Shown one piece after another: positions 3,202 to 14,589 of a DNA stretch of 14,749 nt. The DNA comes from Clostridiaceae bacterium (GTDB taxonomy: Bacteria > Bacillota > Clostridia > DSM-8532). Within the stretch, counting starts at the first letter, position 1; every line of letters begins with the position of its first letter. The notes beneath the pieces were generated by a model. The model did no database searches. It was not told where the DNA came from and saw only the letters and a list, made by a program, of their open reading frames with translations. The position numbers were made by a program, and so were the translations under genes. The stretch is taken from positions 1 through 14,749 of the forward strand of contig DUSJ01000237.1 of assembly GCA_012842645.1 (NCBI GenBank). The letters are read 5' to 3'.

Positions 3202-4656
3202 TCATGGCTCACGTGTAAGCATTTCGTTTATCTGCGCGAACTCCGACGCATTGATCTCAACATTTTCGCCAGTAACATTGGTTACAGTGTTATTACGGCC
3301 TCTTGCGATGAGATCCGAAACGATATACGAGGCACTGCCGTCGTCGCCTCTTCCCGTATTGATGGTAAGATCGACAAACCTGATGTCCTTAAGCTGTGTC
3401 CTGTTAGCCTCAACGGCCAGGGCCCCGATAGTTACAGAAATACCCGGGTTGGTATTCACATTAATGCTCATGTTTTCTAACGTCAGGTTCTCAATGTATG
3501 CGCCGTCCATAGACAGGAACAATCCTGCGGACTTCCTGGAATCAGTATCAATCTTCCTGCTGCTGACGTTTATAGTAATGTTCTTAAGGCTATACCCGTT
3601 GCCATATATCTTCCCCTTGAAGTTTTCGGTCATTTCAAGGGTTATGCCCTTGAAGTCGATATCCCTGGTCAGAATATATCCGTCAACAGGATTCCCGTAC
3701 CTATCCGTTCCCAGGAAACCATATTTGCCGTTGTTCTTCAAATCTTCCGCGCTGGCTATACGTGCATAATTGCCCTTTATATATTTCAGGTAAACGTGCG
3801 TGTTTTCGGTATTCTTGATATACTCATTTATAGCTTCTTCATATATCTGATCCTTGCGCGCCCTGATCTTTGCCCTGTCCTCTTCGCGGTCTGTCGTTAT
3901 CTCATACCCAAGCTTGTTTATGAACAAATCGGGATTGGAGAACTCGGGTTCTTCTTCACCGCCCTCGGGCTCCACATACTCGATCTTCCTGAAAAACTGC
4001 GGGAATTCTTCGTACAGTTGGGCATATACCTCTTCGTTGGATGGTATCAGGGACCTGTGCTTATACTGGGCAAACTCGTACGGTATAGTGCAGGCGCTGT
4101 CAGCAAAGTATCCTAAGAACGTGTGTCCTGCCTTGGAAATAAGCGTCAGGGCAGCTCCCGACAATTCCTGGACAGGAGAAGACTCGGTTATGTTCTTCGA
4201 AAACATGATATCTCCAGTATCTGCATCAATGTATTCGACCTTTCCCTGGGGGATCCATCTGGCGTACAGTGTCATATCGCCCTGAACCCTGTCTTCGTCA
4301 AAATCCCACCTGTCTTCTGCCTTAAACGAATACCCGACAACATTGCCGCTGCTGTCAAGGATATCTTCCTTGGCAGTGTACCAGCCGGCCAGGATGTACC
4401 CGTCCTTAACCGGTTCGACCATCATGTTCGCTGTCCCTGATGGTTTGAACAGGTATGAATTCTTCATATAGTAAGTCTCACGGACTTCGCGTGTATTGAT
4501 TACTCCGCCCAGCGCGTCATATATAACTACACAGTCATAGCCCCAGTTGCCTGGGTTGATGGCGTTGTCCCTGATGGAGCATGCGCTCAGCAACAGAGCC
4601 ACCGTGGCTATAACTATGAGTTTCAATCTATGACGAAGGCTTTTTGATTTTATCAT
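3202..4656 (-). CDS. Lipoprotein with InlB/Flg_new-type repeats and a GLUG-like beta-helix region; function unknown
   Basis: A 484-residue secreted lipoprotein. The positively charged N-terminus (RHRLK) and hydrophobic segment end in lipobox LSAC with Cys26. Residues 40-135 and 136-200 look like two Listeria-Bacteroides (InlB B-type) repeats, with signatures GYILAGWYT, TLYARW and GHTFLGYFAD. Residues 225-240 form an acidic linker (EGGEEEPEF), then a charged helical stretch to about 285. From 298 the protein resembles GLUG/right-handed beta-helix proteins (YILTRDIDFKGI, GKIYGNGYSLKNITI, then YIENLTLENMSINV). The start ATG has AGGAGG about 12 nt upstream, slightly far. It is the last gene of the transporter operon, 30 nt after the small membrane protein gene and before the terminator. 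A role as extracellular accessory factor of the transporter or as cell-wall binding protein is inference; no enzymatic motif is visible. Confidence 0.8.
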   Translation of the reverse strand: MIKSKSLRHRLKLIVIATVALLLSACSIRDNAINPGNWGYDCVVIYDALGGVINTREVRETYYMKNSYLFKPSGTANMMVEPVKDGYILAGWYTAKEDILDSSGNVVGYSFKAEDRWDFDEDRVQGDMTLYARWIPQGKVEYIDADTGDIMFSKNITESSPVQELSGAALTLISKAGHTFLGYFADSACTIPYEFAQYKHRSLIPSNEEVYAQLYEEFPQFFRKIEYVEPEGGEEEPEFSNPDLFINKLGYEITTDREEDRAKIRARKDQIYEEAINEYIKNTENTHVYLKYIKGNYARIASAEDLKNNGKYGFLGTDRYGNPVDGYILTRDIDFKGITLEMTENFKGKIYGNGYSLKNITINVSSRKIDTDSRKSAGLFLSMDGAYIENLTLENMSINVNTNPGISVTIGALAVEANRTQLKDIRFVDLTINTGRGDDGSASYIVSDLIARGRNNTVTNVTGENVEINASEFAQINEMLTREP

Positions 4657-4997: not shown

Positions 4998-5999
4998 TCA
5001 ATCCTGACTGTATAAATGGCATGCAACCATATGCCCTTCTTCGTATTCCTTAAGTTTCGGAACCTCCCGGGAGCATATATCCATACAATGCTGGCACCTT
5101 GTCCTGAATTTGCATCCCGACGGAGGATTGACCGGGCTTGGGATGTCTCCCGACAGGATAATCCTGTTCATTTTAACATCGGGATCGGATATCGGCACGG
5201 CTGACAGCAGCGCTTTAGTATAAGGATGCATGGGGTTATCGAATATACGTTTTTTATCTCCAATCTCCACCATGCTTCCGAGATACATGACCCCGATAGT
5301 GTCAGATATATATTCCACAACAGACAGGTCGTGGGATATAAACAGGTATGTATAGCCATACCTTTCCTGCAGGTCCTTCATCAGGTTGATGATCTGGGCC
5401 TGGATGGACACATCAAGAGCGCTCAGCGGTTCGTCACATATGATAAACTTTGGCTTAAGCGCTACTGCCCTGGCAATGCTTATACGCTGTCTCTGTCCTC
5501 CCGAAAATTCATGGGGATAACGGTAGAAGTACTGGGGCTGCAGGCCGCAGTCACGCATAACCTTGAGGATATGCGACCTGTATTCGGATTTGGGCACTAT
5601 TTTATGCTCTTTTACAGCTTCGCCTATTATCTCTCCTACAGGCATACGCGGCGACAGGCTTGAATACGGGTCCTGGAATATCATCTGCATCTGCGGACGC
5701 ATCTTTCTCAGTTTACTGGGAGGAATCTTTGCCAGGTCCTGCCCGTCGAATATGACCTGACCTCCCGTTATATCATGAAGCCTGAGAATAGAGCGCCCGA
5801 CCGTCGTCTTGCCGCAGCCCGACTCGCCGACAAGTCCCATTGTGGTGCCGCGCTTTATTTTAAATGATACATCATCCACTGCCTTGACATAAGCCCTGCT
5901 CTTGCCTAATGAAAACCTGGACAGAGGGTAATACTTTTTTAAGTTTCTGACTTCCAGAATATAATCATTTTCTTTCTTTATATTTTCCATGGATGCCAA
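4998..5999 (-). CDS. oppF: Oligopeptide/dipeptide-type ABC transporter ATP-binding protein (OppF/DppF-like)
   Basis: A 333-residue ATPase, normal for OppF. Walker A is GESGCGKT (58-65), the Q-loop lies in [13 protein letters not shown], the ABC signature is FSGGQRQR (165-172), Walker B is FIICDE (185-190) followed by SALD, and the switch histidine is in ISHDLSV. The C-terminal oligopeptide-transporter extension has a Cys cluster (296, 302, 305, 309, 327), of the type that binds a 4Fe-4S cluster in some DppD proteins. The start is TTG at 5999: AAAGGAG ends 6 nt before it and lies inside the end of oppD, while the ATG at 5990 is too far from any ribosome site. The gene begins 3 nt after the oppD stop, so translation is probably coupled. 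With OppD it powers uptake through the two permeases. Confidence 0.93.
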
Positions 6000-6002
6000 T
6001 AT

Positions 6003-7202
6003 CTACTCCTTTGCTAAATCGTTCTTGGGAAAGCTGCTTTCGCCGCACAGGTAACAGGCCGCAAAGTGGGTAGGCGAATACTGTATCATCTTCGGATACT
6101 CACCGTGACAAATATCCATAGCCATATCGCACCTGTTCAGGAAATAGCAGTGGTCAGGCATATTGATCGGGTTCGGGACCTGGCCCTTTATACTGTAAAG
6201 CCTGTTGTCCTTCAGCTTGCCGCTTGGTTTCGATCTCATGAGCCCGATCGTATATGGATGTTTTGGATCATGGAATATCTCCCTGACCGTACCCTTCTCG
6301 ATTATTCTTCCTGCATACATGACCACCACCAGGTCAGCCATTTCAGCAATAACACCCAGGTCATGGGTAATAAGCATTATACTCCCGTTTATCCTTTCCT
6401 TGACCTCTCTTAAGAGTTCAAGTATCTGCGCCTGTATGGTCACATCGAGGGCTGTCGTTGGCTCGTCCGCTATGATCAGCCTCGGGTTGCACAACAGGGC
6501 CATTGCTATCATGACACGCTGGCGCATTCCGCCTGACAGTTCATGGGGATATTTCGTGTATATCTTGTCCGGCATGGGTATGCCGACCGATTTCAGCATC
6601 GCGATGCTTCTTTCCTTCGCAATTTCGGGAGTAGCCCCCTCCTCATGGAGCAGAATCACTTCATCCATCTGCTCGCCGATCCTGAAAACAGGGTTAAGGC
6701 TCGTCATAGGTTCCTGAAATATCATGGAAATCTCTTTGCCGCGAAGCTTCAGCATCCTGTCCTTGGGAACCTTCGGAATATCATAGCACTTACCGTCTCC
6801 GGCCTGGTACCTGATGCTGCCCTCCACGATCTGCCCGGTAGGAGCCTGAACAAGCTGCATCAGGGAAAGGCTCGTAACTGATTTGCCGCATCCGGACTCG
6901 CCGACCATGCCAACAGTTTTCCCTATTGGCACATCAAAAGTCACACCGTTTACCGATTTTACGGTTCCAACGTCAGTAAAGAAGTAAGTATGAAGATTGT
7001 CAAACTCGACTACATTGTTCGGATCCCTCATCTGTGTAAGGTATTCTTCTTCCGGCACGTTTTTCCGGGCCTTCTGCCTCTCATAATACTTGATTATTCT
7101 ATTATTTTCCTTGCTAATACGTCTCTCTTCCCGCAGGGTCAGATACATCGTATTATCTACGCCTTCTATTTTCTTACGCTCGAAAAAATTCTTCAAACCC
7201 AT
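6003..7202 (-). CDS. oppD: Oligopeptide/dipeptide-type ABC transporter ATP-binding protein (OppD/DppD-like) with N-terminal extension
   Basis: A 399-residue ATPase, longer than the usual 320-350. The ABC domain starts at about residue 62 (NNVVEFDNLHTYFF). Walker A is GESGCGKS (101-108), the Q-loop is MIFQEPMTSLNP, the signature is LSGGMRQR (222-229), Walker B is LIIADE (242-247) with TALD, and the switch histidine is His280. The C-terminal domain carries Cys352, 358, 365 and 383, the arrangement linked to a 4Fe-4S cluster in DppD structures. The first ~60 residues are charged and helical (REERRISKENNRIIKYYERQKARK) and are not part of the typical fold. An internal Met19 exists, but AGGTG lies only before Met1, 8 nt after the oppC stop, so the extension appears real. 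It pairs with OppF as the nucleotide-binding heterodimer. Confidence 0.93.
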   Translation of the reverse strand: MGLKNFFERKKIEGVDNTMYLTLREERRISKENNRIIKYYERQKARKNVPEEEYLTQMRDPNNVVEFDNLHTYFFTDVGTVKSVNGVTFDVPIGKTVGMVGESGCGKSVTSLSLMQLVQAPTGQIVEGSIRYQAGDGKCYDIPKVPKDRMLKLRGKEISMIFQEPMTSLNPVFRIGEQMDEVILLHEEGATPEIAKERSIAMLKSVGIPMPDKIYTKYPHELSGGMRQRVMIAMALLCNPRLIIADEPTTALDVTIQAQILELLREVKERINGSIMLITHDLGVIAEMADLVVVMYAGRIIEKGTVREIFHDPKHPYTIGLMRSKPSGKLKDNRLYSIKGQVPNPINMPDHCYFLNRCDMAMDICHGEYPKMIQYSPTHFAACYLCGESSFPKNDLAKE

Positions 7203-7210
7203 GATGTCAC

Positions 7211-8293
7211 CTACCTTTTCATCCTCGGGTCAAACGCGTCCCTGAGACCGTCACCGATAAAACTGAAACCTAATACTGTAACAACGATAAGGATACCTGC
7301 CGGAACCCACATATTCGGATAGTTGGCCAGGATGTCCTGTCCTTTTGCCGGATCGGCCAGTGCGATCATTGAACCCCATGCCGCCCTCGGGAAGGGAACC
7401 CCTATTCCAAGGAATGACAGGGTGGATTCGTAAAGAATTACGCCGCCAAGACCCAGGGTCGCTGTTACGATCAATTGAGGCATGGTATTGGGTATAAGAT
7501 GCCTGAATATTTTATGGAGAGAGCTGATACCGGTGGTGGTAGCCGCCATCATATATTCCTGTTCTCTCAGCATGAGGATCTGTCCTCTTACGATTCGTGC
7601 AACGCCTGTCCATCCCAGCAGGGTAATAAAAGCCATCAGGTAGTAAATCCTGTGTTCCGGAGGAATCGCTTCAATGGAACTTATCGTTGCGGACAGAACA
7701 AGCAATATGGGCAGCGTCGGCAGAGACGAGAAAATGTCCACAAGCCTCATGATCAGCAGGTCCACCCAATCACCGAAATAACCGGCCAATCCGCCCATTA
7801 TAATTCCAATAAATGTTTCCAGGAATATTACTATAAATGATATCACGAGCGATATACGTCCACCGTACATCAATCGCGTGAATATATCAAAACCAGACGT
7901 ATCCGTCCCGAGCCAGTGGTCCTTTGAGGGCGGAGCCTTGAAAGTTATTACCGTCTGAGATTTGTCATAATAAGTGTATTTCATGCCGTCAGGTCCTGTA
8001 AAATCGGCAGTGGTAAACATATCGGAAACTCTTTCAATCTTGAATACCTGATTCTCTTTGTATCCCCAGGTAGCATCAACGATCAATGGCCCGACAAAGG
8101 AGAAAAGGAAAACGAAGATAATCATAATCAGTCCGGCAACGGAGAGCCTGCTCTTGAAGAACCGCTTTGCCACCATTCGCCCGGGAGAAATAACCCTGAA
8201 ATTATGTTCCAGTTCCAATTCAATGTTATTATTGCCATTATTACCATTAACGTTTGATTCCGTAATTTTTTCTTTTTCTGTCGTCATCATCAT
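7211..8293 (-). CDS. oppC: Oligopeptide/dipeptide-type ABC transporter permease (OppC/DppC-like)
   Basis: A 360-residue inner-membrane permease. After an Asn-rich cytoplasmic tail (NGNNGNNN) comes the OppC-type N-terminal segment (FKSRLSVAGLIMIIFVFLFSF), then an external loop of about 70 residues, and the binding-protein-dependent permease domain with its EAA-type coupling loop (MMAATTTGISSLHKIFRHLIPN) and the ESTLSFLGIGVP motif typical of DppC. The C-terminus GDGLRDAFDPRMKR is the family's usual ending. Three ATG codons stand in a row at 8293, 8290 and 8287; the first is used here. A longer frame to 8329 would overlap oppB and has no better ribosome site. The start is 10 nt after the oppB stop. 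The peptide label comes from the family; some relatives carry oligosaccharides or nickel. Confidence 0.92.
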   Translation of the reverse strand: MMMTTEKEKITESNVNGNNGNNNIELELEHNFRVISPGRMVAKRFFKSRLSVAGLIMIIFVFLFSFVGPLIVDATWGYKENQVFKIERVSDMFTTADFTGPDGMKYTYYDKSQTVITFKAPPSKDHWLGTDTSGFDIFTRLMYGGRISLVISFIVIFLETFIGIIMGGLAGYFGDWVDLLIMRLVDIFSSLPTLPILLVLSATISSIEAIPPEHRIYYLMAFITLLGWTGVARIVRGQILMLREQEYMMAATTTGISSLHKIFRHLIPNTMPQLIVTATLGLGGVILYESTLSFLGIGVPFPRAAWGSMIALADPAKGQDILANYPNMWVPAGILIVVTVLGFSFIGDGLRDAFDPRMKR

Positions 8294-8303
8294 CAATCCA
8301 CTT

Positions 8304-9302
8304 CTAAGATAATTTGACACGTGGGTCAACCACCATGTACATTAAGTCGGAAATCAGCATGCCTAAAACTGTCAGAACGGCAAGGAACATGTTATACCCC
8401 ATGATAAACGGGATGTCGCCCTGAAGAGTCGCTCTTAGCGCCATATATCCTATGCCTGGAATCGCAAAGACCGTTTCGGTTATCATTGCTCCTCCGAAAA
8501 GGCCCGGGATCATTCCTGACAGGGTCGTTACAAGGGGTATCATTGTATTCCTGAAGGCATGCTTGTAGGTAACAGTCTTCTCAGACAGACCTTTTGCGCG
8601 TGCTGTCCTGATATAATCGGAGTTTAATACCTCAAGCATATTGGTTCGTGTAAACTTCATTATATAGCCGGCATTCAGCAGAGTCAGTACCGTGATTGGC
8701 AAGACCAGGTGCCATGCCTTGTCCAGGAAAATCTGGATATATGCATTCTTATCAAATATTTTCGTAGCCGTTGTCAATCCCTGGAGCGGAAAGATCCTAA
8801 GCTTGATCGCAAACACATTCAAAAGCAATGCCGAAAGGAAGAATGACGGCAATGCGGTGCCCATCATGGCAAATACCGAAACTGTATAGTCATATGCGCT
8901 GTATTGGTTGACCGAAGCCTTGATTCCCATTGGGATACCTATGGCTATCTCGAGGATATATGAAATAAACGCTATCATAAAGGACAGCCAGATATACTCC
9001 GAAAGCACCTTGGTGACAGGTTTCTGGTATAGGAATGAAAACCCTAAATCTCCTGACAATGCACTTTTAAGCCAGGAAAAATAACTTTTCATGATGCCTC
9101 CAAAGCTTTTATCGGCAAGGCCATAAAGCTCTTTCAGACGCATTACGTCATCCATGGTCATGGCACCGCTTTGGAGAGCGGCAGCTGTCTGGGTGTCAAT
9201 AAAGTCTGCCGGCATAAGCATTGAAAGCATATAAATCAATATTGATGCACCTATCAATATTATGAATGCAAGTCCTAATCTTTTTAAAATGTATTTTAAC
9301 AT
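8304..9302 (-). CDS. oppB: Oligopeptide/dipeptide-type ABC transporter permease (OppB/DppB-like)
   Basis: A 332-residue membrane protein, standard for OppB. The N-terminus MLKYILKRLGLAFIILIGAS is the family's first membrane helix. An extracytoplasmic segment with MTMDDVMRLKELYGLADK follows, then several membrane helices and the EAA coupling loop (IRTARAKGLSEKTVTYKHAF) that contacts the ATPase, with the GGAMITETVFAIPGIG motif near the end. The ATG at 9302 has a modest AGGGG 6 nt upstream. The gene lies 91 nt after the binding-protein gene, with a strong stem-loop in the gap, and just before oppC. With OppC it forms the transmembrane channel. Confidence 0.93.
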   Translation of the reverse strand: MLKYILKRLGLAFIILIGASILIYMLSMLMPADFIDTQTAAALQSGAMTMDDVMRLKELYGLADKSFGGIMKSYFSWLKSALSGDLGFSFLYQKPVTKVLSEYIWLSFMIAFISYILEIAIGIPMGIKASVNQYSAYDYTVSVFAMMGTALPSFFLSALLLNVFAIKLRIFPLQGLTTATKIFDKNAYIQIFLDKAWHLVLPITVLTLLNAGYIMKFTRTNMLEVLNSDYIRTARAKGLSEKTVTYKHAFRNTMIPLVTTLSGMIPGLFGGAMITETVFAIPGIGYMALRATLQGDIPFIMGYNMFLAVLTVLGMLISDLMYMVVDPRVKLS

Positions 9303-9335
9303 ATCAAGCCCCTGTTCCTGTATTTATACAATATT

Positions 9336-9369
9336 GGTACAAGGCTTGGGCGGTCCCAAGCCTTGTACC
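9336..9369 (-). other. Strong intercistronic stem-loop between binding-protein and permease genes
   Basis: A perfect 15-bp inverted repeat (GGTACAAGGCTTGGG at 9336-9350, CCCAAGCCTTGTACC at 9355-9369) with a 4-nt loop. No T-run follows on the minus strand, so it is probably not an ordinary terminator. It lies 24 nt after the binding-protein stop. Such hairpins often protect the 3' end of the upstream message or partly stop transcription, giving more binding protein than permease; that role is inferred. Confidence 0.85.
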
Positions 9370-9393
9370 CAAAAGTTGTCTGTAAATCAATAC

Positions 9394-11856
9394 CTAGTTC
9401 AGCTCGACATTCCAGATGTAAACCAGCGGTGAATGGAACGGAGTTACATCATCGCCGGTCTGGAGTGACGATGTCTTAATAACTTCATGGTTATAAACGA
9501 ACATGTTCTTTCTCTGGTATGTGGGAACCTCAACTGCAAGGCCTGTTGAAAGCTCAAGGGCTCTCTTGTAGATGGTCTTGCGCTCTTCCATATCGAGTGT
9601 CTGACGGCCAGCCATGATCAGCTCGTTCAGTTCCCTCAGCATAGCTTTCTCTTCGTCTGAACCGTTCTGGAAGAGATAGTACAGACCGCTTCTTGCTGCA
9701 GAAGTACCCTGGTTGACTGCAGGATCTGAGTACCAGATCTGGAACATATCAGGATCAACGCCGCCGCCGCCCCAAGCAGCTGCCCATACCTCGAGACCGG
9801 ATTCATATGCAGTGCTCAGCTTAGACAGCAGGTTCGTATCTGTTTCAATATTAACCTTAACACCGATCTTAGCGAGTACTTCCTGAGTATCAAGGAATAT
9901 CGAACCGGCAGGATGTTCTGATGCCTCAGATGGCAGCGTGAACTTGAATGTTACCTGCTGACCGGCCTTGGGATGTCCGTCAGGATAGGTCATTATGTTC
10001 TTCGCTGCGTCATATTTGTAGCCGGCTTCGAGGAACAGTTTCTTGGAGGTTTCGCCTGTTCCGTCGTAGGGATAAAGGGGCTCGGGATTATCGGGATATG
10101 CCCACAGGATCTTGGTCATTGTCCTGTAGTTGACTGTTGCAAGCTCCTGGTAGTAGTTGTCAACAGCAAGCTGAGGATTGATTGCATGAGCTATAGCCTG
10201 TCTTACCTTGAACTCAGGTATAGCCTGGCCCTGGATACCAATATAACCATAACCGTCATTGTCAACGAGTATATATTTAACCTTCGCATAGTCTCCGGTA
10301 CCGGCTGTAATGTTGTTGATTATAGTCATTGAAGCCGACGGGTTGGAGTAATGTACTGTACCGGTCAGTACGGCATCAAGTTCTGAACCTGAAGTTACTT
10401 CCTGGTAACGTACGGTCTTTATTTTCGGCGAACCAAGGAGGAAGCTGTCGTTTGCTGTAAATGTAACAACGTTATCCTTGTATTCCTCGAATACATAGGG
10501 GCCTGCTCCCATGGGCTTGTTGTTCTTGGTCTTCAGGTGATCCATGAACTCTTTCTTGCCTATGTCAACGCCATATTCATTAAGTGTCCCGGTATATCCT
10601 TCAGTATAGTAATGGAAGGGAACTACGGGAACCTGGAATTTGAAGATAGCCGTCGGATCAACGCCGTCGAGTACGACCTTGATATATTCCCTTTCAACGC
10701 CGTCATCACAAACCATCTTACCGTATGTGATACCGCTTATGCTGTTAACGCCACCGGCAACGCGGCCTTCCTTTTCAATATATATATCCCTGATATAATC
10801 CTGAATGGTGAGATCACCGGCTTTTTCATAGTTGATACCGGTGTCGCTCAGGTCATATCCGTAAGCATCAAGGATATTCTTCCAGTAAATATTAGCGTCT
10901 ACAGTATCTTTTGAAAGATCATAGGTATTGCCCATGGAATCGATAAACTTACCTGAATCGTCGAGTTCACCGAATCCCCACATTACCATACCGAATGCAG
11001 CCTGCATAGAAGGACTTGCAGCAACCTGGTCAGGGGTATATGGTGCAAAATACTTTTCTATGTAGCTCTTATAGTTATTATTTACATAATCGATGATTTC
11101 CTGTGCGAATTTGGCACCGGCTTCATCAAGATAACTCCAGAACTTCTCCTGTTTATCCATGGTAACGCCATTTGCAGGATTGATAACCATTTTACCATCG
11201 TCGCCATTCGTAATACCTGCTTCGATGATAGCATCGACCATCTTCAGGACATCAGCGCTGGTCTGGAGACGATATTCGCTCAATCCCTGGATCTTCATTG
11301 TATAGAAGGTAGACGAACCATCATACATGGGATCTGACAGTACGTACATAGAGAAAAGTACGTCTTTAACTGTAATAGGCTTGCCATCGCTGAAAGTCAG
11401 GCCGTTTTTCAGTATGAAGGTATAAGTTGATGTAGAGTTGTCAGATGCCACGTCAACCTTGTAGTCGAAAGCATAGCTGGCAACATCAACACCCGCTGTC
11501 ATTTCACCCTTCTTGTTGGGGAACATAAGGTAGAGCTGGGTCAGGTCAACAATATCGCCATCATAAGCTGATGTGTAGAAGAACGGGCTGAACTTGCCGT
11601 CAAGAGTGTTTGTGGCGATAACGAGAGGCATCGTCGCATTGTTGCCTGTTCTTGGGGTAACTGTTGCGTCATATCTGTTTGCCGGAACATCAGGTTTTAC
11701 TTCTGCAGGACCCGTTGTCTGGCTCGGACCTGGAGTCGCACTTGTGCCCGGAGAAGGAGATCCGTCTCCGCTGTTGCGATTTCCGCATGCCACCAGCGAT
11801 AAAACAAATACTAACGCCAGCAGCGCTGCAAGCATCCTTTTGATTCTGAGCTTCAT
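9394..11856 (-). CDS. Large extracellular solute-binding lipoprotein, family 5 (OppA/DppA-like)
   Basis: An 820-residue lipoprotein, far longer than the usual 500-600. The signal sequence ends in lipobox LVAC with Cys24, and a Ser/Pro/Thr/Gly-rich linker (25-55) tethers the protein above the membrane. Family-5 landmarks are TYTFILKNGLTFSDGKPITVKDVLFS (147-169 region), then PMGAGPYVFEEY, VRQAIAHAINP and the C-terminal EVWAAAWGGGGVDPD. Between about residues 197 and 367 lies an extra segment, rich in Tyr, Asp and Asn, with no clear counterpart in the standard fold. The ATG at 11856 has AGGAGG 7 nt upstream; an in-frame extension to 11928 precedes the signal peptide and is rejected. It is the first gene of the operon. 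It should capture peptides or possibly oligosaccharides for the OppBCDF system; the ligand is not predictable. Confidence 0.92.
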   Translation of the reverse strand: MKLRIKRMLAALLALVFVLSLVACGNRNSGDGSPSPGTSATPGPSQTTGPAEVKPDVPANRYDATVTPRTGNNATMPLVIATNTLDGKFSPFFYTSAYDGDIVDLTQLYLMFPNKKGEMTAGVDVASYAFDYKVDVASDNSTSTYTFILKNGLTFSDGKPITVKDVLFSMYVLSDPMYDGSSTFYTMKIQGLSEYRLQTSADVLKMVDAIIEAGITNGDDGKMVINPANGVTMDKQEKFWSYLDEAGAKFAQEIIDYVNNNYKSYIEKYFAPYTPDQVAASPSMQAAFGMVMWGFGELDDSGKFIDSMGNTYDLSKDTVDANIYWKNILDAYGYDLSDTGINYEKAGDLTIQDYIRDIYIEKEGRVAGGVNSISGITYGKMVCDDGVEREYIKVVLDGVDPTAIFKFQVPVVPFHYYTEGYTGTLNEYGVDIGKKEFMDHLKTKNNKPMGAGPYVFEEYKDNVVTFTANDSFLLGSPKIKTVRYQEVTSGSELDAVLTGTVHYSNPSASMTIINNITAGTGDYAKVKYILVDNDGYGYIGIQGQAIPEFKVRQAIAHAINPQLAVDNYYQELATVNYRTMTKILWAYPDNPEPLYPYDGTGETSKKLFLEAGYKYDAAKNIMTYPDGHPKAGQQVTFKFTLPSEASEHPAGSIFLDTQEVLAKIGVKVNIETDTNLLSKLSTAYESGLEVWAAAWGGGGVDPDMFQIWYSDPAVNQGTSAARSGLYYLFQNGSDEEKAMLRELNELIMAGRQTLDMEERKTIYKRALELSTGLAVEVPTYQRKNMFVYNHEVIKTSSLQTGDDVTPFHSPLVYIWNVELN

Positions 11857-11919
11857 AATCAATCCTCCTATATTTTTTCTCTTTTTTATAATTACAATGC
11901 GCAGCGGTGTCTCAGCAAC

Positions 11920-11934
11920 CGTACACATCGTACA
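11920..11934. repeat. Short direct repeat in the leader of the binding-protein gene
   Basis: CGTACA occurs twice with a 3-bp spacer (11920-11925 and 11929-11934), 22 nt or more downstream of the predicted start of transcription. It could be a regulator site, but the form matches no operator that I recognise, and a chance occurrence is possible. Confidence 0.35.
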
Positions 11935-12105: not shown

Positions 12106-12134
12106 TTGACCCTTTGAAAATTATAAAGTAAACT
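12106..12134 (+). promoter_or_regulatory. Probable sigma-A promoter of the nuclease-helicase gene
   Basis: TTGACC (12106-12111) and TAAACT (12129-12134) are separated by 17 nt. The predicted transcription start near 12141 falls on the LexA palindrome, the classical arrangement for an SOS-repressed promoter. Confidence 0.7.
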
Positions 12135-12140
12135 GTTTGT

Positions 12141-12152
12141 GAACATATGTTC
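12141..12152. promoter_or_regulatory. LexA (DinR) SOS box
   Basis: GAACATATGTTC is a perfect 12-bp palindrome and fits the Gram-positive LexA consensus (CGAAC-RNRY-GTTCG core GAAC-N4-GTTC) except for the outermost C/G pair. It overlaps the predicted start of transcription, 4 nt before the AGGAG ribosome site, in front of a DNA-repair-type helicase. Motif, position and gene function all agree. Confidence 0.85.
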
Positions 12153-12168
12153 TTTCAGGAGAATGGCT

Positions 12169-14589
12169 TTGACTGAATCAATTAAAAATAATAATTTCAT
12201 GGAAAATAATAACAGCGATCTTCCCGTATTCAAGGTATCGGTAAGGAGCCTTGTCGCTTTTTCGGTAAAGGACGATTCACCCTGGAGCTTTACTTCGTAC
12301 AGGTTTGCCTATGAAGGCACCCTCGCCCATTCAAAGCTCCAGGCTGTCAATCGTGATGCCGGGAATTACTCTTCCGAGGTATATCTTTCATGGTCATTCG
12401 AAACAGCAGACTGTATTTTGGATGTCAGCGGAAGGGCAGATGGCGTGTGGAATAATGATGACGGCAGGGTAATTGTCGAGGAAATCAAGACATCGGCGAC
12501 ACCGCTTTCCGAAATCGATGAAAATATCAGCGACGCCCACTGGGCCCAGGGAAAATGCTATGCTTACTTATTGGCCCTGTCCCGTGACTTGAAGAAAATT
12601 ACCGTCAGGCTTACCTATTACGACATGGAAAAAGATCAATCGAAGTCTTTTGACCGGGAATTCACAAGGGACAGGCTCAGCCGTTTCTTCAGAACGCTTC
12701 TCCATCCCTATGTCAAGTGGTGTATTTCTCAAAGAAACTGGAAGCAAATAAGGGATTTGTCAATCAGCACGCTGAACTTCCCGTTTCCGGATTACCGGAA
12801 AGGCCAGAAGCTGCTGGCTTACAACGCCTACAAATGCATAGAGGACCGTAAAAGGCTTTTTGTCCAGGCGCCCACGGGAACTGGAAAAACCATGGGATTG
12901 CTTTATCCCTCCATAAAATCCCTTGGCGAAGGAAAACTCGACAGGATCTTTTATGCAACAGCCAAGACCACGACTAAGTCGATTGCTGAAAACGCATACA
13001 AGATCATGGCGGACCAGGGTCTGCGCCTGAAGGTGCTTACCCTTACCGCGAAAGAAAAGATGTGCCTTAACGACATCAAGAACTGCACTCCCGATAAATG
13101 TCCGTATATCATGGGATACATGTCCCGCTCCAGGAAAGTTATAAAAAACCTGCTGAAAAAGCACGACTTCATTTCGCGGGATATCATAAGCGCTGCCGGG
13201 GTCAGGAACGTGATCTGCCCTTTTGAGCTCAGCCTGGACCTGGCATTGAGCTGCGATCTTATCATATGCGACTACAACTATATATTCGATCCCCGGGTTT
13301 ACCTGCGCCGTTTCTTCGAGCAGAAGGGACGGGAGGAATACCTTATAATGGCAGACGAAGCCCATAATCTTTTTGACCGCGCAAAAGAAATGTATTCCTC
13401 TGAGCTTAAAGCAAAGGCGATACTGGAGATATCACGAGAAATAAAAAAGGACCTGCCGCACCTGAACAGAAAGATAAGAAAGCTGAGGAAGGCCATCTCC
13501 GATTTTGAAAAGCAGTCCGGGGATCTTGCGAAAGAAGCCGGAGGCATCAGGTACAATGTCCTTGATGACGCTCCTGTCAGCCTTAAAGCTCCCATAGAAG
13601 ATTTCATACTCGAAGCGGAGAGATTGATGATATCCGCAACGGAAGAAAAGCCTTATACTGACAAGCTTCTCACTTTCTTCTTCGATCTCCTCCATTTCAA
13701 GAATATACTGGAGCTTTACTCGAAACAGTACAGGACGCTCCTGACCGGCTTTAAGTCAGGCTTTTCCATCAGACTGCAATGTCTTGACCCCAGTCCGATG
13801 CTAAGCAGGCACCTAAAGGCTGCGAGAGCTGCCATACTGTTCTCCGCCACCCTTTCTCCCCTGTGGTACTTTAAGAGCATCCTGGGAGGGAGGGATGAAG
13901 ATGTCACGCTCAGGCTTCCATCCCCGTTCCCCCGCGAAAACCTGCTCGTCTTTATTGAAGACAGGATTGAAACTCGTTACCGCCAGAGGGCACAATTTGC
14001 CGAGGCAACCGCAAAGGCCATTTACGACTGGACAGTTTCCCATAATGGCAATACCATGGTCTTTTTCCCGTCATACAAATATCTTCTTGACGTGCTGGAG
14101 AAATTCAGGGAGCTGGGCGGCAGTTTTGAAATCCTATGCCAGGACAGGGACATGGATGAACGGGCAAGAGAGGCTTTCCTGAAAGAATTCGATAAATACG
14201 GGGACGCTGACAGGATAGCTTTCTGCGTCATGGGCGGAGCATTCGGCGAGGGCATAGATCTGACCGGTGAAAGGCTGACCAGCGTTATCATCGTGGGGGT
14301 GGGCCTTCCCCAGGTATCGCCCGAGCTTGAAATGACGAGGGATTATTACCAGGAAAAATGCGGCGCCGGGTTTACTTTTGCATACACTTACCCCGGGCTG
14401 AACAAGGTCCTGCAGGCGGCTGGAAGGCTGATCCGGTCTGAAACCGACCGTGGCGCCCTGCTGCTTATCGATTCGAGGTTCGCCACGCCCGAATACATGG
14501 GGCTTCTGCCGCAGGAATGGCAGCCCGTTCCAAGGACGTCGCAGGGGCTGAGCCTTAAAGAATTCGCGGATCATTTCTGGAACAGGTAA
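12169..14589 (+). CDS. SOS-type DNA repair nuclease-helicase: PD-(D/E)XK (Cas4/RecB-like) domain fused to an XPD/DinG-family iron-sulfur helicase
   Basis: An 806-residue protein. Residues 85-135 carry a PD-(D/E)XK nuclease core: Asp91 in GRADG, Glu105 and Lys107 in EEIK, and QGKCYAY at 127-133. The helicase part (about 220-800) is superfamily 2, Rad3/XPD type: Walker A QAPTGTGKT (233-241), DEAH box (396-399), four Cys (299, 306, 311, 350) placed between motif I and the DEAH box as in 4Fe-4S XPD/DinG helicases, and motif VI QAAGRLIR (749-756). It should unwind DNA 5'-3' and may cut or trim it. The start chosen is TTG at 12169, 7 nt after AGGAG; ATG 12163 is 1 nt from that site, and GTG 12139 lies at the transcription start within the SOS box region. 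Divergent from the transporter operon. Confidence 0.9.
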   Translation: MTESIKNNNFMENNNSDLPVFKVSVRSLVAFSVKDDSPWSFTSYRFAYEGTLAHSKLQAVNRDAGNYSSEVYLSWSFETADCILDVSGRADGVWNNDDGRVIVEEIKTSATPLSEIDENISDAHWAQGKCYAYLLALSRDLKKITVRLTYYDMEKDQSKSFDREFTRDRLSRFFRTLLHPYVKWCISQRNWKQIRDLSISTLNFPFPDYRKGQKLLAYNAYKCIEDRKRLFVQAPTGTGKTMGLLYPSIKSLGEGKLDRIFYATAKTTTKSIAENAYKIMADQGLRLKVLTLTAKEKMCLNDIKNCTPDKCPYIMGYMSRSRKVIKNLLKKHDFISRDIISAAGVRNVICPFELSLDLALSCDLIICDYNYIFDPRVYLRRFFEQKGREEYLIMADEAHNLFDRAKEMYSSELKAKAILEISREIKKDLPHLNRKIRKLRKAISDFEKQSGDLAKEAGGIRYNVLDDAPVSLKAPIEDFILEAERLMISATEEKPYTDKLLTFFFDLLHFKNILELYSKQYRTLLTGFKSGFSIRLQCLDPSPMLSRHLKAARAAILFSATLSPLWYFKSILGGRDEDVTLRLPSPFPRENLLVFIEDRIETRYRQRAQFAEATAKAIYDWTVSHNGNTMVFFPSYKYLLDVLEKFRELGGSFEILCQDRDMDERAREAFLKEFDKYGDADRIAFCVMGGAFGEGIDLTGERLTSVIIVGVGLPQVSPELEMTRDYYQEKCGAGFTFAYTYPGLNKVLQAAGRLIRSETDRGALLLIDSRFATPEYMGLLPQEWQPVPRTSQGLSLKEFADHFWNR

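Follow-up and report, generated by a model that had tools for sequence, protein, structure and literature searches.

The 14,749-nucleotide stretch analyzed here (the window; contig DUSJ01000237.1 of an anaerobic Clostridiaceae bacterium) carries a gene whose product probably both unwinds and cuts DNA on one polypeptide chain, and whose promoter bears a putative LexA operator kept in every readable orthologue of the same bacterial family. The protein belongs to the EndoDinG type. We consider there to be a good likelihood that this EndoDinG is directly repressed by LexA as a single-gene unit, and that it performs DinG/YoaA-like unwinding together with cutting at sites of damage. Sequence comparison supports the architecture of the protein, its intact active-site residues, and the conservation of the operator.

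The helicase-nuclease and its locus

The features of the locus are collected in Table 1. The initial annotation had placed a perfect GAAC-N4-GTTC palindrome on the predicted start of transcription. The palindrome is exact and lies 6 bases past the -10 hexamer, a distance that positions it at the expected transcription start. The annotated feature began at 12106, which holds for the promoter; the coding sequence more likely starts downstream, most likely at TTG 12169 given the AGGAG preceding it. By eye, an AGGAG was also seen 6 bases 5' of a TTG in the relatives L015, L016, and L018. The alternatives are a protein of 808 residues from ATG 12163 and a mechanical open reading frame from GTG 12139. 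Residue numbers used here are counted from ATG 12163; the Asp91 and Lys107 singled out earlier, which had been counted from the TTG, are D93 and K109 in this numbering, and both are present. Elsewhere in the window, on the minus strand at 4998-11928, a peptide-type ABC transporter cluster comprising a binding protein, two permeases, and two ATPases was recognized by eye.

Table 1. Positions of promoter, operator, and protein features in the window (residues in ATG numbering)
Feature	Position	Strand	Remarks
Sigma-70-type promoter	12106..12134	+	-35 TTGACC 12106-12111, 17-bp spacer, -10 TAAACT 12129-12134
LexA operator, putative: GAACATATGTTC	12141..12152	.	exact GAAC-N4-GTTC; covers expected transcription start
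Ribosome-binding site AGGAG	12157..12161	+	7 bases 5' of TTG 12169
EndoDinG-type helicase-nuclease CDS	12169..14589	+	806 aa from TTG
N-terminal PD-(D/E)XK nuclease domain	12223..12717	+	about residues 21-185
Nuclease active-site residues	12328..12561	+	H56 12328, E72 12376, D93 12439
Nuclease active-site residues, continued		+	E107-K109 12481-12489, Q129 12547, Y133 12559-12561
Helicase motif I APTGTGKT	12868..12891	+	residues 236-243
Fe-S domain, C301/C308/C313/C352	13063..13218	+	invariant cysteines; DEAD_2 domain
DEAH box	13354..13365	+	residues 398-401
Helicase_C_2 domain with motif VI QAAGRLIR	14038..14526	+	residues 626-788, E 2e-42

An iron-sulfur cluster held by four cysteines within the nuclease domain is a feature of Cas4, to which the N-terminal domain had been likened in the initial annotation. 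No conserved set of this type was found in residues 1-215, where only C132 is nearly invariant. The PD-(D/E)XK nuclease itself is supported by sequence, profile, and fold comparisons. In an alignment of 36 sequences, selected among the available loci and with identity down to 33%, H56, E72, D93, E107, K109, Q129, and Y133 are invariant, with E107-I-K109 forming the motif. The fold is of the RecB/Cas4 class and matches the nucleases of AdnA, AddA, RecB, and Dna2, and the PDDEXK_1 profile matched six of nine members (best E 1.9e-5), the window's own domain not being among them. No Pfam nuclease family matched either the full protein or this N-terminal domain; support for the nuclease comes from relatives, matches in the PDB, motifs, and the structural model. 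The model of the full-length protein is of middling confidence (pLDDT 73, pTM 0.57). The fold, the motifs, and the profiles of relatives thus sustain the nuclease as originally read, and the Cas4 likeness stops short of the four-cysteine set and of a Pfam match in the domain itself.

The combination of such a nuclease with a DinG motor is already known. EndoDinG is named in section 3.7 of a 2025 review by Cheng for the DinG of Bdellovibrio bacteriovorus, whose endonuclease activity is there attributed to unpublished data (PMC11981726). A shortened Arch domain and the absence of MD2 beta-7 are further features of the class. Bdellovibrio EndoDinG and the protein described here share an N-terminal PD-(D/E)XK domain with H, E, D, E, and K residues, a CCCC Fe-S domain, and an XPD/DinG motor; they differ in the host, which here is a member of the Clostridia, and in the LexA-type operator present on the promoter here. 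A homologue from Finegoldia magna, about a third identical to our protein, has been solved with ssDNA and ADPNP (9kqh, released 2025-12-03), and no paper on it was found among the matches listed for open-licence PMC papers. The N-terminus encoded by genome G253 is near-identical to that of 9kqh, and reads GRADG where 9kqh reads GRAAG. The metal-binding Asp is thereby replaced by Ala, and the crystal therefore probably holds a nuclease-dead variant.

The N-terminal domain is apparently an active nuclease, as judged from its residues. It could be argued instead that the domain serves for DNA binding alone or for control of the motor, and that cutting is not the main task of the protein; the modest Foldseek TM-scores against Cas4 4ic1 (0.48-0.57 by query length) are in keeping with that idea. 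We regard it as unlikely, given that the catalytic positions do not vary among the 36 chosen sequences, that endonuclease activity, albeit unpublished, is credited to the Bdellovibrio protein (PMC11981726), and that the Ala in 9kqh suggests an active site disabled by the depositors.

The motor is an XPD-type SF2 helicase, to which the Helicase_C_2 and DEAD_2 domains were matched. All four cysteines of the Fe-S domain are invariant in the 36 aligned sequences, as are three positions of the DEAH box, with A400 nearly so. These matches bear out the original reading of an XPD/DinG-like iron-sulfur helicase joined to a nuclease. From the family and the four cysteines, 5'-3' movement and a [4Fe-4S] cluster are expected. 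Identity with ExoDinG was considered and rejected: the N-terminal domain fits PD-(D/E)XK folds, a DnaQ-type exonuclease is not present at the N-terminus, and TIGR01407 scored 101 bits (cut-off 547.7), with its best stretch at residues 548-783.

Dna2 and AddAB have SF1 motors, and share with our protein a Cas4/RecB-class nuclease coupled to a helicase. The same coupling is found in UvrD-Cas4 fusions, which differ in having an SF1 motor; links of Cas4-like proteins to UvrD and YprA-type helicases have been described (PMC5704561). A resection machine for double-strand breaks, similar to AddAB/RecBCD or Dna2, would accordingly also place a nuclease with a helicase, as on the single chain here, and would account for the fold matches named above. 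It is nevertheless quite unlikely, as the motor is SF2 rather than SF1, and AddA was matched in all 24 genomes searched (23 above cut-off). In the same number of genomes, no second DinG-type helicase was found with one model, dinG_rel, at a threshold of E<=1e-10. The model matched 22 of the 24, 20 at the helicase-nuclease locus and two (G012 and G018) over its exonuclease part only; since it scores the helicase-nuclease family well below its cut-off, a distant paralogue could escape detection. With AddA present and no second DinG-type helicase found, a DinG/YoaA-like role at forks becomes likelier than break resection.

PADLOC model PDLC01439 (typeIV_DinG, "CAS-IV-A; associated") matched residues 196-792 with an E-value of 5.4e-118, a strong match that might indicate a CRISPR or defence helicase; NCBIfam Csf4 scored 17.4 bits (cut-off 400). 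The initial annotation had likewise raised invading DNA as a possible target. The neighbourhood gives this no support: inspection by eye of the opening 70 residues of every frame revealed no cas-like neighbours in 18 loci of 4-8 kb, and none was recognized by eye in the window. The four-cysteine Fe-S set is intact in our protein, in contrast to the pseudo-FeS domain ascribed to CasDinG (PMC11981726), and presence in 27 of 32 genomes of the family under a LexA-type box is a better fit to repair. We therefore hold a CRISPR or defence function to be very unlikely, and note for annotators that the PADLOC label marks as CRISPR-associated what is probably a repair protein. In a phage collection, relatives of the protein (<60% identity) occur in 30 records, which are labelled as Listeria, Arthrobacter, Enterococcus, Bacillus, and unnamed phages, and some of these records may contain bacterial DNA.

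A LexA-type operator conserved within the family

The bare pattern is common enough that counts of it are of little use. GAAC-N4-GTTC occurs twice in the window, where 0.20 occurrences are expected, and a count of two or more arises in 3 of 200 shuffles; the second perfect match, at 3940-3951, falls within an open reading frame and is considered chance. A genome-wide count was dropped as proof because the backwards-read control pattern was equally frequent in the complete relative G020 (42 perfect matches of each) and commoner in our own bin (67 versus 18). Outside the window, the 16 matches of the own genome comprise 12 within long open frames, one at recA, and three in intergenic DNA. On these counts, the box alone is weak proof, and it is conservation that makes the case.

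The protein was matched in 33 of 61 genomes, its own included, and in 27 of the 32 belonging to the family, f1; no match was found in the other five f1 genomes (G008, G012, G018, G023, and G027). Two of the 27 genes, in G011 and G030, were excluded at contig ends, and the remaining 25 with readable upstream DNA all have the box, 23 in perfect form and two with one mismatch (G003 and G013). In G016 and G021 it was found on direct reading of the sequence. G015 and G017, retrieved once the pattern was already defined, fit it: each has a perfect box with TACAAT nearby, as seen by eye. In 22 of 23 box-aligned loci, a pattern search located a -10-like hexamer ending 1-16 bases 5' of the box, and the remaining one, L016, has TATACT before the box by eye. 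Over the 23 loci, the box has 1.71 bits of information per column, compared with 0.23 for the bases on its downstream side and 0.15 for those far upstream.

A further test used a scoring matrix for which 48 recA/lexA operators were the sole training set. Compared with 200 dinucleotide shuffles per region, it gave p<=0.02 in all 23 f1 upstream regions examined, with 17 reaching the floor of 0.005; of the 23, L026 was scanned over a stretch lengthened once its box was known. The 13-mer TGAACRTATGTTC, picked with the boxes already known, is present in 12 of 21 genomes at a single place each, which is the helicase-nuclease promoter in 11 of them. The exception is G025, whose helicase-nuclease box reads GAACATTTGTTC. 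Read backwards, the pattern occurs twice across the 21 genomes.

Two loci of the set deserve separate mention. Upstream of L012 (G006:C27, around 17041), an imperfect box, AAACATATGTTGAAC, comes after the perfect one, and the two are a possible tandem operator. The orthologue of G010 lies in two open pieces (L004 and L027), and the gene is perhaps broken or misassembled.

The same operator type stands upstream of recA in 20 of 20 loci read (22 loci, two of which were not parsed), including that of the own genome, AGAACAAATGTTCG, and upstream of lexA in 19 of 21 loci, with three boxes in 17. A LexA DNA-binding domain was detected in 21 of 23 genomes, among them nine of nine same-genus relatives searched. 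LexA was not found in the search of our own bin, which is 87% complete. The box also matches published Gram-positive operators (PMC4234289). By these comparisons, the helicase-nuclease box is of the same type as the LexA operators in these bacteria, and the presence of a conserved repressor site on the promoter indicates expression switched by damage.

That the palindrome might instead serve a repressor other than LexA is suggested by a perfect TGAACAATTGTTCA preceding an ArsR-like regulator gene, not an SOS gene, in the own genome (contig C196, by eye), and is most improbable, because the center and flanks of the box agree with the operators that stand at recA and lexA in the same genomes, and no regulator gene stands constantly beside the locus in 18 relatives (by eye). 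In all 18 loci the downstream gene, taken from the longest open frames, is convergent, and in L029, L030, L031, and L034 it resembles a LacI-type regulator by eye.

Three further boxes stand near genes, named by eye, in the own genome, G000. The aforementioned TGAACAATTGTTCA (C196:2940-2951; L049:1541-1552) is a LexA-box look-alike that is probably the operator of another regulator. An intergenic GGAACACATGTTCT upstream of a threonine synthase gene (C169:1851-1862; L047:1552-1563) is possibly a further LexA site. An intergenic TGAACCAAAGTTCT lies about 110 bases 5' of a dnaX-like gene (C197:3982-3993; L050:1483-1494).

Probably lineage-specific control: orthologues outside the family

In a class-wide sample, the protein was found in 114 of 293 genomes. 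Outside f1, 75 orthologues were read and one (L142) was removed for its short upstream DNA. Among the remaining 74, there were four perfect boxes and eight with one mismatch, compared to none and six for the control. The recA/lexA matrix gave p<=0.02 in 13 of 83 loci, with about 1.7 expected, the set being the 74 plus L006-L010, L035-L037, and L040. Universal SOS control of the orthologues was rejected on account of these few boxes. The prediction that orthologues would conserve the palindrome is thus borne out in f1 and mostly fails outside it.

Boxes adjoining a -10 occur in two other families, f26 (perfect in G203, G152, and G235, one mismatch in G086) and f38 (G094 and G117, AGAACATATGTTTG). 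Decayed boxes occupy the equivalent place in the relatives L036 (f26) and L160 and L165 (f38). Within a single genus of f26, the loci L036, L127, L128, L130, L132, and L135 display perfect, one-mismatch, decayed, and missing boxes, possibly a natural series of operator loss. G032, of the nearest other family, f2, has a one-mismatch box, TGAACATATGTTTG, of doubtful meaning, since searches of this 93% complete genome found no LexA and no RecA. G120 (L129) has a perfect box with no clear adjoining -10; RecA was not found in the genome, and the box may be a chance occurrence.

The absence of the box from most of these orthologues does not reflect a change in the operator type of most of their genomes. 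Outside f1, a perfect box is kept at recA in 23 of 30 loci (29 of 30 genomes searched). In G253, for example, the orthologue (L179) has no LexA box, unlike those of f1, and recA (L238) has one. The recA genes without a perfect box are those of all three f63 genomes, of G069 and G138 (f38), and of G222, plus a second RecA-like gene of G127; in f63, G069, and G138, a missing helicase box consequently says little. Because most orthologues outside f1 have no box and most recA genes there keep it, SOS control of the helicase-nuclease appears to be lineage-specific, and the rarity of the box implies a core function of the protein that is independent of SOS control.

Proposed role and relation to known DinG proteins

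In the SOS pathway, RecA filaments on single-stranded DNA trigger LexA self-cleavage. For the gene described here, LexA would occupy the transcription start and so repress the single-gene unit, and LexA self-cleavage would turn the gene on. The helicase-nuclease would then load on single-stranded DNA exposed at blocked forks, at R-loops, or in gaps and translocate, the nuclease cutting the strand being displaced, such that the unwound DNA could not simply re-anneal. In this scheme we infer LexA binding, induction, the substrate, the polarity, and which strand is cut. Most likely, the single-gene SOS unit takes over the DinG/YoaA task where forks are blocked or R-loops form.

We take DinG and YoaA of E. 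coli to lack an N-terminal PD-(D/E)XK nuclease. They share with our protein an XPD-family helicase under a LexA-type site, and are reviewed as damage-inducible and LexA-controlled (PMC11981726); the E. coli SOS box is of another type than the box here. Firmicute ExoDinG also has an N-terminal nuclease on a DinG motor, and differs in that its domain is a 3'-5' exonuclease of another kind and in that the S. aureus and B. subtilis proteins are reported as outside LexA control (PMC11981726; PMC12345164). LexA is not mentioned in section 3.7 on EndoDinG (PMC11981726), the word "helicase" is absent from the main text of the C. difficile regulon paper (PMC4234289), and PMC3150331 and PMC3765255 contributed nothing further about the helicase-nuclease protein. 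No report of LexA control of EndoDinG was found among the matches listed for open-licence PMC papers, and its membership in the LexA regulon seems to be unreported there.

For the EndoDinG class, whose reviewed activity rests on unpublished data (PMC11981726), the LexA-type operator links the protein to DNA damage and provides a directly testable case for its purpose. The operator also suggests damage control of DinG-family helicases in Gram-positive bacteria, though the ExoDinG proteins of S. aureus and B. subtilis are reported otherwise. More tentatively, and as a possibility we would not yet favor, the SOS response of this Clostridia lineage may employ a one-chain unwind-and-cut enzyme in place of a plain DinG, with LexA control kept or regained in f1, f26, and f38 for restraint of the nuclease and most other orthologues being without it. 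If so, the nuclease must stay under a switch, which would explain why control was kept or regained in those three families, and, during damage, EndoDinG gated by LexA would convert stalled forks or R-loops into DNA that has been cut and processed.
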